This document shows positions 23,887 through 31,340 of a stretch of DNA of 64,000 bases, in pieces (position 1 is the stretch's first letter; every line of letters begins with the position of its first letter). Origin of the DNA: Shinella sp. SUS2 (GTDB lineage Bacteria > Pseudomonadota > Alphaproteobacteria > Rhizobiales > Rhizobiaceae); the NCBI RefSeq assembly GCF_001262505.1, contig NZ_KQ410727.1:186001-250000 (forward strand), read 5' to 3'. Position numbers and translations under genes: made by a program. The notes beneath the pieces were generated by a model, which ran no database searches, was not told where the DNA came from, and worked only from the letters and a program-made list of their open reading frames with translations.

Positions 23887-25392
23887 TCATCGCGGCATCC
23901 ACCAGCTGGTGCGTGCGCCGATATGCATGTTGAGTGTCTTGGTCTCCGTATAATCCTCCACCGCATGGCGACCAAGTTCACGGCCGAGGCCGGACTGGCG
24001 GTAGCCGCCGAAGGGCAGTTCGGACGCGCCGTCCATGAAGGTGTTCATCCAGACCGTGCCGGCGCGAACCTTGCGGCCGATGGTGAGGCACGTGTCGAAA
24101 TCGCGGCTCCAGACGCCGGCGGACAGGCCGTAGTCAATGGCGTTGGCGATGCGGATCGCCTCTTCCGTCGTCTCGAAGGTCAGAACCGAAAGCACCGGAC
24201 CGAACACTTCCTCGCGGGCGACGGCCATGTCAGGTTGAACGCCCGAGAGGATGGTCGGGGCCATGAACTGACCGAGGCCGAGATCCAGCGCCGCGCCGCC
24301 GAGCGCGACCGAAGCACCGGCCTTGGTTGCATCCTCGACATAGGCGCCGATCTTTTGGAGATGCTGCGGCGTGATGATCGCGCCGACCTGCGTTGCGGGG
24401 TCGAGTGGATCGCCGACTTTCACTTTCTTCGCCAGTTCCGCGATGCGGGCCGTGACAGCGGCCGCGATGGATTTGTGCAGGATCAGCCGCGAGCCGGCAT
24501 TGCAGCATTCGCCGGCGTTGAAATAGGCGCCGAAGACAGCGGCGTCGATGAAGGCGTCGAGATCGGCATCCGGGAAGACGATCTGCGGGTTCTTTCCGCC
24601 GAGTTCGAGCGATACCTTCTTCAAGGTCTGGGCGGCATTGGCCATGGTCAGACGTCCGACACCGGTGGAACCGGTAAAGGAGACCATGTCGACGTCGGGA
24701 TGCGTCGTCATCGGCGCGCCGACCTCCGGCCCGGTGCCGGTGACGATGTTGACAACACCTGCGGGCACGCCGGCCTCGATCAGGATCTCCCCGAGGACAA
24801 GCGTCGATCCCGAGGTGAGTTCGGACGGTTTGACCACCGTCGTGCAGCCCGCGGCGAGCGCGAATGGTAATTTCTGGCTTACGATCAGGAAGGGGAAGTT
24901 CCACGGCGTGATGATCGACACGACGCCGATCGCCTCGCGCAGAACGACGCCAAGCGTGCCGTCGCCAAGCGTGTTGTAGCTTTCGCCGTGCAGGTCGCGG
25001 GCGAGCGCTGCGGCATAGCGCCAGATATCGACGGCGCCACCAAGTTCACCCTTTGCCTGGCTGATCGGCTTGCCGCTTTCGATGCAGTCGAGGAAGGCCA
25101 GTTCCTCCGCCCGGGCGGCAATGAGGTCGGCGGCCTTGAGGAGGATGTTCGAGCGTTCGGCGCCGGTCATGGACGGCCATGGCCCGTCGTCGAAGGCCTT
25201 GCGTGCGGCGGCAATGGCGCGTTCGGCATCGGCCTTGCTGCCGGCCGGGTAGCGGCTGACCACGATGCCATGGCCCGGCGCGATGCGTTCGATCGGGTCG
25301 CCGGCGCCTTCCGTCCAGATGCCGTCGATCAGCATGCGGAAATCGCGCGCCTTGAAGTTTTCGAGCGCCTTGGGTTTCACATGCGCGGCCAT
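23887..25392 (-). CDS. Aldehyde dehydrogenase family protein
   Basis: A 501-residue aldehyde dehydrogenase: ITPWNFPF for the cofactor, VSLELGGKNP with the general-base Glu, and NAGECCNAGSRL with the catalytic Cys. Start: the enoyl-CoA hydratase stop and this ATG share a base (TAATG at 25394-25390) and AAGGGAG lies 7 bases upstream. An ATG at 25398 is also in frame but too close to that site. It is the last gene of a five-gene leftward operon headed by a LacI regulator and should oxidise a pathway aldehyde or semialdehyde to the acid. Convergent to the LacI gene ending at 23839. Confidence 0.87.
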   Translation of the reverse strand: MAAHVKPKALENFKARDFRMLIDGIWTEGAGDPIERIAPGHGIVVSRYPAGSKADAERAIAAARKAFDDGPWPSMTGAERSNILLKAADLIAARAEELAFLDCIESGKPISQAKGELGGAVDIWRYAAALARDLHGESYNTLGDGTLGVVLREAIGVVSIITPWNFPFLIVSQKLPFALAAGCTTVVKPSELTSGSTLVLGEILIEAGVPAGVVNIVTGTGPEVGAPMTTHPDVDMVSFTGSTGVGRLTMANAAQTLKKVSLELGGKNPQIVFPDADLDAFIDAAVFGAYFNAGECCNAGSRLILHKSIAAAVTARIAELAKKVKVGDPLDPATQVGAIITPQHLQKIGAYVEDATKAGASVALGGAALDLGLGQFMAPTILSGVQPDMAVAREEVFGPVLSVLTFETTEEAIRIANAIDYGLSAGVWSRDFDTCLTIGRKVRAGTVWMNTFMDGASELPFGGYRQSGLGRELGRHAVEDYTETKTLNMHIGARTSWWMPR

Positions 25393-26171
25393 TACCATTC
25401 TCCCTTGAAATCGGCAGGGCGTTTGCCCGTGAAGGCGGCGACACCTTCCTTCAGGTCCCCGGTCTTGGCGACGAGGATCGAGCCGAGGGCCTCCACCGCC
25501 GCACCATTGTCCTCGCCGTTCGCCACTGCGATCATCAGCTTCGACACCTCCGTTGCCGCCGGCCCGCGCGCTGCGATGCGCGCTGCGTAGGCCTTTGCGG
25601 CTTCGACGGCCGTGCCTGTCTTGACGACCTGGTCGATGATGCCGGCAATCTGCGCCTCTACCGCTGTCAGTACCTCGCCGCCGAGCAGCATCCGGCGCAC
25701 CGCCTGTGCGCCAAAGCGCTTCACCAGCCGCTGCGTGCCGGACCAGCCGGGCACCATGCCGAGGCCGGCCTCCGGCAGGCCGATCTTCACCTGGGTTTCC
25801 GCGATGCGGATATCGGCTGCGGCCGCCAGTTCCAGCCCGCCGCCAAGCGCATGGCCGTTAACGGCAGCAATCAGCGGCATGCGCAAAGTCGCCAGCCGCT
25901 CGAAGACACGATGGCCGAAGCGCACCCAGGCATGGCCGAACGTGTTCGCCTCCATGCCGGCCCAGGCCCGGATATCGCCGCCGGCGGAAAAGGCCTTGCC
26001 CTCGCCGGTGAGAATGGCGACGCGCACCGCGGCATTTTCCTCGATGGTGTCGCAGGCCGCCGAAAGCTCCTTCAACATGTCGATGTCGAAGGCGTTGAGC
26101 TTTTCCGGCCGCGCGGCGGTAATCGTCGCGACGGGGCCTTCGATGGAGATGCGGATGCGCTGTTCAGCCAT
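25392..26171 (-). CDS. Enoyl-CoA hydratase/isomerase family protein
   Basis: A 259-residue crotonase-fold protein with FSAGGDIRAW (oxyanion hole), HALGGGLELA and LPEAGLGMVPGWSGTQRL, keeping both catalytic glutamates. The ATG at 26171 lies 8 bases inside the end of the CoA-transferase gene, and a 20-residue longer frame is not supported. Beside a CoA-transferase it likely hydrates or isomerises the CoA ester formed from the pathway acid. Confidence 0.87.
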   Translation of the reverse strand: MAEQRIRISIEGPVATITAARPEKLNAFDIDMLKELSAACDTIEENAAVRVAILTGEGKAFSAGGDIRAWAGMEANTFGHAWVRFGHRVFERLATLRMPLIAAVNGHALGGGLELAAAADIRIAETQVKIGLPEAGLGMVPGWSGTQRLVKRFGAQAVRRMLLGGEVLTAVEAQIAGIIDQVVKTGTAVEAAKAYAARIAARGPAATEVSKLMIAVANGEDNGAAVEALGSILVAKTGDLKEGVAAFTGKRPADFKGEW

Positions 26172-30136: not shown

Positions 30137-30167
30137 TTATTGCCGTGAAAAACCTCGGGAGGATTTC

Positions 30168-31340
30168 ATGCCGATCAGCCTTACCCTGCCGCTGCCGGAT
30201 GGCGGCCTTTCCCGCTACGATCTTGTCGGGACGCCGCTTCCGCGCCCCTCCGTTGTGCCGACCTTCAGCCGCATCGCCTATGCGGCGGCCCATGTGGTTT
30301 CCGATCCGCGCCGCGATGCGCGGCCCTGGGAGGCGCCGGCCATCGACTGGGAGCGTACGATGGCGTTCCGGCATCACCTCTGGTCGCTCGGCTTCAGGAT
30401 CGCCGAGGCGATGGACACGGCGCAGCGCGGCATGGGGCTCGACTGGGCCGGCGCGCAGGAGCTGATCCGCCGCTCGCTCGCCGAGGCGAAGACCGTGCCA
30501 GGTGCCGATCTTGCCTGCGGTGCGGGCACGGATCACCTCAACCCCGCCGATGCCCGTTCGCTGGACGACGTGATTCGGGCCTATGAGGAGCAGGTCGGTT
30601 TCGTGGAAAAACACGGCGGCCGTGCCATTATGATGGCGAGCCGGGCACTCGCCCGCCTGGCAGCCTCGCCGGACGATTACCGCAGGGTCTACGGCCATAT
30701 TCTCGGCCAGGCGAAGGACAAGGTCGTGCTGCACTGGCTGGGCGACATGTTCGACCCGCAGCTTGCCGGTTACTGGGGTTCCGGGACTTTCGAGCCGGCG
30801 CTGGAAACGGTTCTGTCGATCATCGCCGAGAACCGCGACAAGGTTGAGGGCATCAAGATTTCGCTGCTCGACAATGCCTGTGAGGTGGCGCTGCGCAACC
30901 GGCTGCCCGAGGGTGTGATCTGCTTCACGGGCGACGACTTCAATTACGCCGAACTGATCGAGGGGGACGGGCAGAGATACAGCCACGCCCTGCTTGGCAT
31001 CTTCGATGCGGTGGCGCCGCAGGCTTCCAAGGCGCTTGCAGCGCTTGCGGCTGGCGATGTTGCCACCTTTCGCGCCGTCATAGCGCCGACGGTCCCGCTT
31101 TCGCGCAAGATCTTTGAGGCGCCGACACCGTACTACAAGGCCGGCGTCGTCTTCCTCGCCTGGCTGAACGGTCACCAGGACCATTTCACCATGCCTGATG
31201 GCATGCAGTCGGCCCGGGGCCTTCTGCATTATGCCGAAGTCTTCCGCCTGGCCGACCGGGCCAACGTGCTCGACAGGCCGGACCTCGCCGCTGCACGCAT
31301 GAAAAACCTGATGTCCGTGCTTGGCGTCGGGCAAGATTAG
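30168..31340 (+). CDS. DUF993 protein, dihydrodipicolinate-synthase-like
   Basis: A 390-residue protein matching the DUF993 family, annotated by similarity as dihydrodipicolinate-synthase-like aldolases (TIM barrel). Visible landmarks are GTDHLNPADARSLDDVIRAY, VVLHWLGDMFDP and GIKISLLDN, whose lysine is a candidate Schiff-base residue. CGGGAGG precedes the ATG. It is divergent from the LacI/Gfo-Idh operon, with a matching operator. A retro-aldol or dehydratase step in the same sugar-derived pathway is plausible but not shown. Confidence 0.78.
   Translation: MPISLTLPLPDGGLSRYDLVGTPLPRPSVVPTFSRIAYAAAHVVSDPRRDARPWEAPAIDWERTMAFRHHLWSLGFRIAEAMDTAQRGMGLDWAGAQELIRRSLAEAKTVPGADLACGAGTDHLNPADARSLDDVIRAYEEQVGFVEKHGGRAIMMASRALARLAASPDDYRRVYGHILGQAKDKVVLHWLGDMFDPQLAGYWGSGTFEPALETVLSIIAENRDKVEGIKISLLDNACEVALRNRLPEGVICFTGDDFNYAELIEGDGQRYSHALLGIFDAVAPQASKALAALAAGDVATFRAVIAPTVPLSRKIFEAPTPYYKAGVVFLAWLNGHQDHFTMPDGMQSARGLLHYAEVFRLADRANVLDRPDLAAARMKNLMSVLGVGQD

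Follow-up and report, generated by a model that had tools for sequence, protein, structure and literature searches.

A candidate gene cluster for aerobic 1,5-anhydrohexitol catabolism containing a DUF993 protein in Shinella sp. SUS2

The present analysis concerns a gene cluster located in a 64,000-nucleotide stretch of the Shinella sp. SUS2 genome (contig NZ_KQ410727.1, positions 186,001 to 250,000; hereafter the window), in which the gene for a protein of the DUF993 family (PF06187; 30168..31340, plus strand) faces away from an operon that encodes a LacI-type regulator, an ortholog of 1,5-anhydro-D-fructose reductase (AFR), a family I coenzyme A (CoA) transferase (CoAT), a crotonase and an aldehyde dehydrogenase (ALDH). 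This cluster probably encodes an undescribed aerobic breakdown of anhydro sugars in which DUF993 takes part. More tentatively, as a proposal that we hold with well under even confidence, these genes would form the central part of a cluster of 14 catabolic genes that acts on 1,5-anhydrofructose (AF), a ring sugar derived from starch, on anhydroglucitol (AG) and on anhydromannitol (AM) and includes a full route through CoA esters. If true, this would provide a defined and directly testable aerobic gene set for AG and the first function for DUF993, a family with a solved structure (4dnh), and the pathway would probe why the known AFR produces the manno epimer. AG serves as a marker in the clinic, and two inherited diseases are characterized by a build-up of AG 6-phosphate in neutrophils.

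The AFR ortholog and the conserved gene set

The Gfo/Idh family protein (afr; 27783..28784, minus strand) aligns end to end with PDB entry 2glx over 331 residues, of which 258 are identical, with no gaps (E 3.8e-173). Both 2glx and 4koa are AFR of Sinorhizobium morelense S-30.7.5, of which the Shinella protein is an ortholog; the next best PDB match is far weaker (E 3.8e-34). The catalytic residues K96, D178 and H182 (numbering of the 335-residue frame) are retained in all 81 loci compared. NADPH-dependent reduction of AF to AM is accordingly predicted from the sequence for the Shinella protein, and because this protein is an AFR ortholog, 1,5-anhydrohexitols (AF, AG and AM) are the likely substrate class of the system. 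AFR and growth on AF are already known. An earlier sequence-only reading of this DNA saw no match to a textbook pathway, and indeed we found no description of the pathway in the literature searched, although the Gfo/Idh protein does match the known AFR activity.

The joint conservation of these genes was assessed from two directions. The DUF993 loci are the 80 top-ranked of at least 593 confirmed matches; L050, L074 and L082, where the DUF993 call was lost to overlapping frames, were dropped, so that 77 loci and the window were counted. Among these 78, CoAT is encoded in 48, ALDH in 47, the crotonase (enoyl-CoA hydratase, ECH) in 43 and AFR-type Gfo/Idh in 40. The second set is anchored on AFR, which is detected at E ≤ 1e-90 in 43 of the 199 genomes of the host's family, and comprises 40 loci fetched without the use of DUF993. 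The stretches are about 20 kb at most, and the identity or E-value thresholds were set by us for this set as well as for comparing the named and the more distant DUF993 loci. Among the 40, CoAT is present in 39 loci, ECH in 37, ALDH, the solute-binding protein (SBP) and both permeases of an ATP-binding cassette (ABC) transporter in 36 each, the transporter ATPase in 35, LacI in 33, DUF993 in 32, the oxidoreductase GMC1 in 26, a second lacI gene in 11, and a short-chain dehydrogenase/reductase (SDR) and the oxidoreductase GMC2 in five each. The low counts of the latter two arise because the fetched stretches usually stop short of these genes. One locus of this set, L188, is a second AFR paralog of genome G133 (48% identical) in a different setting, which inflates the ALDH, SBP and permease counts and leaves that of CoAT unaffected. 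None of these 40 stretches yielded a match to an acyl-CoA dehydrogenase or an isomerase gene.

Eight of the AFR loci lack DUF993 within the fetched stretch. In five genomes (G144, G222, G176, G250 and G175), DUF993 is located farther along the same cluster; in G154, it is on another contig; in G148, the first part of the gene is at the edge of the AFR contig and the remainder is on another contig; and the eighth locus is L188, the main AFR copy of the same genome being adjacent to DUF993. Re-searching recovered DUF993 in 10 of 10 genomes. With three Shinella genomes included, the analysis covered 42 of the 43 AFR genomes (all but G114), and each of the 42 contains DUF993. Random separation of these genes in relatives, named in the sequence-only reading as the outcome that would speak against it, was looked for; the gene set holds together with either anchor, and the idea of a co-regulated catabolic unit is supported.

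The full extent of the unit is apparent in the distant loci L182 and L186, where all 14 genes are on one strand in the order AFR-CoAT-ECH-ALDH-SBP-permease-permease-ATPase-GMC1-SDR-GMC2-Dabb-DUF993-LacI. The five extended stretches L192-L196 show the second half of this order, with no LacI seen in L195 and with Dabb following a kinase gene in L193; in the other six of these distant loci (L182, L186, L192, L194, L195 and L196), the Dabb gene is flanked by GMC2 and DUF993. The same enzymes are encoded in Caballeronia (L053) and Acinetobacter (L069), the latter locus additionally containing genes for glycerate kinase, phosphoenolpyruvate (PEP) carboxylase and two transporters of the major facilitator superfamily, with no ABC transporter match at the neighborhood thresholds.

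In Shinella sp. SUS2, lacI (28781..29827), afr, CoAT (26164..27786), the crotonase (25392..26171) and ALDH (23887..25398) are all on the minus strand, each overlapping its neighbor by a few bases, and DUF993 is divergent on the plus strand, as the sequence-only reading had placed these six genes. The same reading listed no transporter and closed the unit at this point; in fact, a sugar ABC transporter (18183-22480) adjoins the ALDH side on the same strand, and the unit holds more than twice the genes listed, extending down to 13731 through the transporter, GMC1, SDR, GMC2 and Dabb genes, all on the minus strand. The transporter comprises an SBP closely related to PDB 4r2b (21230..22480; E 1.9e-233), two permeases (20181..21074 and 19303..20184; PF00528) and an ATPase of the UgpC/MsmK type (18183..19298; NF008653, 456.5 bits vs a cut-off of 432). 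In the window, it is separated from ALDH by just the second lacI gene (22787..23839, plus strand; PF00356), which is found only in some relatives; in many Rhizobiales loci, such as L010, L011, L013, L016, L018, L021, L022, L025 and L027, the transporter begins no more than a few hundred bases past ALDH. Start sites were chosen by the reading frames: the raw lacI frame begins at 29902, upstream of the operator, and the GTG codon at 29827 is the likelier start; the crotonase and afr starts were chosen likewise.

Several Sinorhizobium meliloti genes appear to correspond to parts of this cluster. Presumably, SMc04400 is the AFR gene of this bacterium and smc04396, judging from gene order, encodes the binding protein. 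The sugar transport gene smc04396 is reported to be induced by dextrin in an earlier study cited in PMC4960864, and a table in PMC12542648 lists SMc04390 as an L-sorbose dehydrogenase, SMc04391 as an SDR and SMc04392 as a dehydrogenase; these three tags fit the order GMC2, SDR, GMC1 in the window, and so does SMc04396. The same table places the DUF993 protein SMc04132 and the oxidoreductase SMc04133 in the same expression module, which is weak evidence, given the many proteins in that module.

A palindrome of the form TTGGAWCGWTCYAA precedes both arms of the cluster, with pattern matches TTGGATCGTTCCAA at 29880..29893, 5' of the lacI-afr operon, and TTGGAACGATCTAA at 30122..30135, 5' of DUF993. 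Within the window alone, this evidence is weak: with two mismatches allowed, there are two sites against 0.48 expected, and at least two sites appear in 7 of 100 shuffles. Across the 7.0-Mb genome, the two sites are the sole occurrences at up to one mismatch, the reversed control pattern giving one match per strand, which upholds the claim of the sequence-only reading that the LacI operon and the divergent DUF993 gene have an operator motif in common. Sites of this form are found in all 65 stretches between lacI and DUF993 and in two copies in 51 of them, the 14 single-site stretches being those of L027 and 13 Mesorhizobium loci; this tally has no shuffle control, includes the window's own locus and a 6.8-kb stretch in L069, and some of the genomes may overlap. 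The LacI protein (PF00356/PF13377) would act as a repressor of both arms that is released on binding an intermediate. We take SMc04401 of S. meliloti to be its ortholog, based on gene order. PMC4560400 gives a predicted regulon of mean size 4.04 for SMc04401, in passages that name neither an effector nor a pathway; given this listing and the orthology, a binding motif for this regulator is probably already in print.

DUF993 and the other enzymes

The Shinella DUF993 protein matches PF06187 with 612.1 bits (gathering threshold 24) over positions 1-382 of 382. Because a single-sequence fold reached a predicted local distance difference test (pLDDT) score of 41, an alignment-based model with a mean pLDDT of 92.4 was used instead. 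This model superimposes on 4dnh, the solved structure of an uncharacterized S. meliloti protein, with a Z score of 57.7 and 57% identity, and on chains of the dihydrodipicolinate synthase (DHDPS) family with Z scores of 29.5-30.5 over 284-290 residues at 10-17% identity. The match to YagE (2v8z), which possesses 2-keto-3-deoxy-D-gluconate (KDG) aldolase activity, has a Z score of 29.7. Lys230, the candidate Schiff-base residue, lies in strand 226-232, the sixth strand of the barrel, and His189 lies in the fifth, as placed by counting the elements of the model. Lys230 is invariant in all 112 loci, and so are D83, T84, Q86 and R87. The variation between His and Gln at position 123 fails to distinguish the genomic contexts of DUF993.

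Compared with the class I aldolases of the DHDPS/N-acetylneuraminate lyase (NAL) type, YagE included, DUF993 thus shares the triosephosphate isomerase (TIM) barrel (Z about 30) and the strand-6 lysine but is longer (390 aa) and departs from these enzymes in sequence. Two of these departures count against the route proposed below. First, the GTTGE motif of the superfamily is replaced by MDTAQ (MDTAQRG), the GxxGE pattern being absent after strand 2, so that pyruvate-type binding is doubtful. Second, an hhalign comparison with five of the seven DHDPS-family proteins found in the same genome, using a shallow alignment, yields a probability of 0.6%; the alignment does set the lysines of both sides near each other, which at this probability counts for nothing alone. 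PF00701 does not match DUF993 at E 0.001. In the absence of profile-level similarity, the relationship with DHDPS rests on the fold. The sequence-only description of DUF993 as aldolase-like is borne out as regards the fold: in the model, DUF993 is class I aldolase-like in its fold and candidate lysine, and it is not a member of PF00701. The chances that it is a C-C lyase appear to fall slightly short of even.

The catalytic residues of AFR, CoAT, ECH and ALDH are intact in all scored loci (81-85 for each protein). The CoA-transferase, of the YdiF type (PF01144), is a fused chain that matches 2ahu over residues 9-530 of 540 (E 2.1e-109) and retains the catalytic Glu331 in all 85 loci. The best PDB match of the crotonase (PF00378) is the 3-hydroxypropionyl-CoA dehydratase 5zai, and both catalytic Glu residues are kept in 81 of 81 loci. 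ALDH (PF00171) retains Cys299 and Glu265, again in all 81; the Cys beside the catalytic Cys is replaced by Ser in one locus. Two oxidoreductases dependent on flavin adenine dinucleotide (FAD) are encoded farther along the cluster: GMC1 (16665..18173) resembles glucose/fructose dehydrogenases (8hdd, residues 2-496 of 502, E 6e-42), and GMC2 (14061..15716) is choline dehydrogenase-like by Pfam and NCBIfam, with the alcohol-oxidizing PDB relatives choline dehydrogenase 9lq0 and chloramphenicol-inactivating oxidoreductase 8b7s, and is likely to oxidize primary alcohols. The remaining genes encode a FabG-like SDR (15889..16668; NF009386, 353.8 bits vs a cut-off of 250) and a 106-aa protein with a stress-responsive A/B barrel (Dabb; 13731..14051; PF07876).

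A possible route and its alternatives

The enzymes present, their joint conservation, the palindromes, the transporter and the orthology with AFR can all be read from the sequence and suggest the following chemistry. The ABC transporter would import the sugar. GMC1 would oxidize AG at C2 to AF, and AFR would reduce AF to AM, the activity reported for the crystallized enzyme, so that together they would invert C2 of AG. GMC2 and ALDH would oxidize C6 of AM to a carboxylate, from which the CoA-transferase would form a thioester. The crotonase, acting as a 3-hydroxyacyl-CoA dehydratase, would remove the C4 hydroxyl to give a vinyl ether, and hydration of the latter, perhaps by the Dabb protein, would open the ring at C5. 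Ring opening by vinyl ether hydration has a precedent in unsaturated glucuronyl hydrolases. The product would be KDG, free or CoA-bound, which DUF993 would cleave via a Schiff base at Lys230 to pyruvate and D-glyceraldehyde; glyceraldehyde would be oxidized to glycerate and then phosphorylated.

The stereochemistry, worked out by hand under the Cahn-Ingold-Prelog (CIP) rules, fits this scheme: AM would yield (4S,5R)-2-keto-3-deoxyhexonate, i.e., natural D-KDG, and AG would yield the (4S,5S) compound. That AM and not AG leads to D-KDG would explain why the product of AFR is the manno epimer. A glycerate kinase gene follows LacI in two of the five extended stretches (L193 and L194) and, in the more distant group of 39 loci with DUF993, is present in five (L044, L045, L069, L070 and L075), among which just L069 has AFR; these neighbors of a minority of clusters fit a C3 exit. 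Taken with all its parts, namely a ring-opening CoA pathway with a non-phosphorylating Entner-Doudoroff-like end, DUF993 as a new class I aldolase family that has dispensed with GxxGE, and manno selectivity setting the KDG stereocenter, the scheme is unlikely to be correct throughout.

Several further observations weigh against this route. To our knowledge, CoA esters of anhydro acids have never been demonstrated. The SDR and Dabb proteins have no assigned step, and the SDR in particular has no firm place. No glycerate kinase of at least 40% identity was detected in the 40 AFR stretches, nor was one seen in three of the five extensions. Within the stretches covered, most clusters thus lack the C3 exit, which may be encoded in another part of those genomes. 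Two other contexts have DUF993 but no AFR, so that DUF993 need not act on products of AF. AFR, at the level of at least 40% identity, is missing in the otherwise similar loci L033, L040 and L044, and ALDH is missing in L028; nor was ALDH detected in L172, in L185 or in two loci truncated at the end of a contig (L183 and L191). A pattern scan detected no LacI palindrome ahead of the transporter in the Shinella genome. Finally, a review passage on S. morelense (PMC12441222, section 5.1) describes a different next step, in which AM formed from AF is hydroxylated at C1 by an unidentified P450-like activity to yield mannose.

An alternative with a real but minority claim is that the cluster serves another natural substrate, such as a 2-keto sugar (osone), a glucoside or a cyclic ether of plant or fungal origin, and that AFR acts on AF only incidentally; the cluster would still import and oxidize its substrate, activate it with CoA and cleave a C-C bond. 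AFR also reduces osones, GMC1 resembles general FAD-dependent glucose and fructose dehydrogenases, and DUF993 is accompanied by acyl-CoA dehydrogenase and isomerase genes, without AFR, in L046, L047, L062, L070, L075, L080 and L112. The existence of such AFR-free clusters implies that related clusters treat other substrates. For the cluster at hand, however, the crystallized ortholog, at 78% identity, is named for AF, and CoAT accompanies AFR in all but one of the AFR loci.

It is also possible, although on balance unlikely, that DUF993 is not an aldolase and uses a lysine Schiff base for dehydration, hydration or ring opening of a keto sugar, in the manner of the KDG dehydratases that belong to its superfamily. 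In line with such a role are the occurrence of dehydratases in the DHDPS superfamily, the MDTAQ substitution and the failure to find glycerate kinase, which would signal a C3 product, in the AFR stretches. Conversely, glycerate kinase genes do adjoin some clusters, and the cluster proteins that were scanned gave no match to any other family of aldolases.

Under a third, rather improbable explanation, AF would be converted via AM to mannose by C1 oxygenation, as in the S. morelense passage of the review (PMC12441222), and CoAT, the crotonase and DUF993 would handle another, linked substrate. However, Pfam scans of the cluster proteins revealed no P450 family, although the enzyme could be encoded elsewhere in the genome, and the association of CoAT and DUF993 with AFR is as well conserved as that of the transporter. 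The order suggested in the sequence-only reading, in which a polyol is oxidized and cut by DUF993 and the fragment is then CoA-activated, hydrated and oxidized, draws on the same enzymes and the aldolase fold of DUF993 but is supported by no result and seems still less probable, given that a small fragment offers little reason for a CoA-transferase and a hydratase and that CoA activation before the cut makes better chemical sense.

Three known types of pathway were considered and rejected. For inositol/rhizopine catabolism, the inositol dehydrogenase model scores 150 bits against a cut-off of 355, and the scanned cluster proteins include no family of the IolE/IolD type; the gene sets of the deoxyribonate and C-glycoside pathways do not match; and formation of KDG by a sugar-acid dehydratase of the cluster is not supported by any enolase superfamily match among the same proteins.

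Related pathways and other DUF993 contexts

The S. morelense AF pathway that includes the ortholog of the Shinella reductase differs from the proposed route in that it continues to mannose by C1 hydroxylation, the enzyme being left unidentified in the review (PMC12441222), and the literature passages that deal with this pathway give no role to CoA-transferase, GMC, Dabb or DUF993 genes. The same sugars, AG and AM, are degraded anaerobically with YbiW/PflD, which are glycyl radical enzymes (Ma et al., cited in PMC12441222), a route that needs phosphorylation by the phosphotransferase system (PTS) along with the glycyl radical enzyme. Neither of the two was detected in the Pfam scans of the cluster proteins, to which this search was confined. 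In the furoate and tetrahydrofurfuryl alcohol pathways, cyclic-ether acids are opened in a CoA-dependent manner; the likeness to the proposed route is in the succession of alcohol, acid and CoA ester followed by hydration beside the ring oxygen, and the difference is that the ring in the Shinella route is polyhydroxylated.

The literature searched contains no paper naming DUF993 or PF06187, no description of the gene cluster as a pathway, and no relevant paper on anhydroglucitol dehydrogenase with Agrobacterium or on combinations of the cluster protein names. Subscription papers, including the original AFR paper, were outside this search, and part of the pathway may therefore already be in print.

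Homologous DUF993 genes are found in two other contexts. In the first of these (context B), the typical arrangement is Gfo/Idh-DUF993-isomerase, with tricarboxylate-type (TctA/TctC) or NMT1-type transporters and TetR regulators; it is represented by L045, L048-L052, L054-L060, L063-L068, L071-L074, L076-L079, L081 and L082. A DUF993 tree with 57 rows sets 26 of them apart (99/90) as a context B group, distinct from the rows with CoA genes. Among the 39 loci L044-L082, an enolase superfamily gene is present in 16, all of context B, and a thiamine diphosphate (ThDP) enzyme gene in nine. In the second context (A2), DUF993 is encoded with an acyl-CoA dehydrogenase and often with electron transfer flavoprotein (ETF), SDR, aldo/keto reductase and isomerase genes. 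For example, the second DUF993 gene of Shinella sp. SUS2 itself (57% identical; L112 1-7246, contig C64) is located among genes for an aldo/keto reductase, an acyl-CoA dehydrogenase, an SDR, an AP_endonuc_2-like isomerase and the ETF beta and alpha subunits, which is probably a CoA-type sibling pathway for another substrate. The Enterobacteriaceae loci L046, L047 and L062 combine DUF993 with ALDH, GMC, ETF, ETF-quinone oxidoreductase (ETF-QO)-type and acyl-CoA dehydrogenase genes. In the Acinetobacter locus L069 (12499-16425), genes for a PEP carboxylase and a glycerate kinase lie next to DUF993, and the same pair is found in the context B locus L045 of Marinobacterium.

Two neighbors flank the cluster in the window. 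On the plus strand at 9709-13592, genes of a glycine-betaine-type ABC transporter (an OpuAC binding protein, a permease, an ATPase and an additional permease-like frame) end just ahead of the Dabb gene. On the other side, DUF993 is followed by a gene of the uracil-DNA glycosylase family (31426-32121), which among the named loci compared is found only in the five Shinella loci and is likely unrelated to the cluster.

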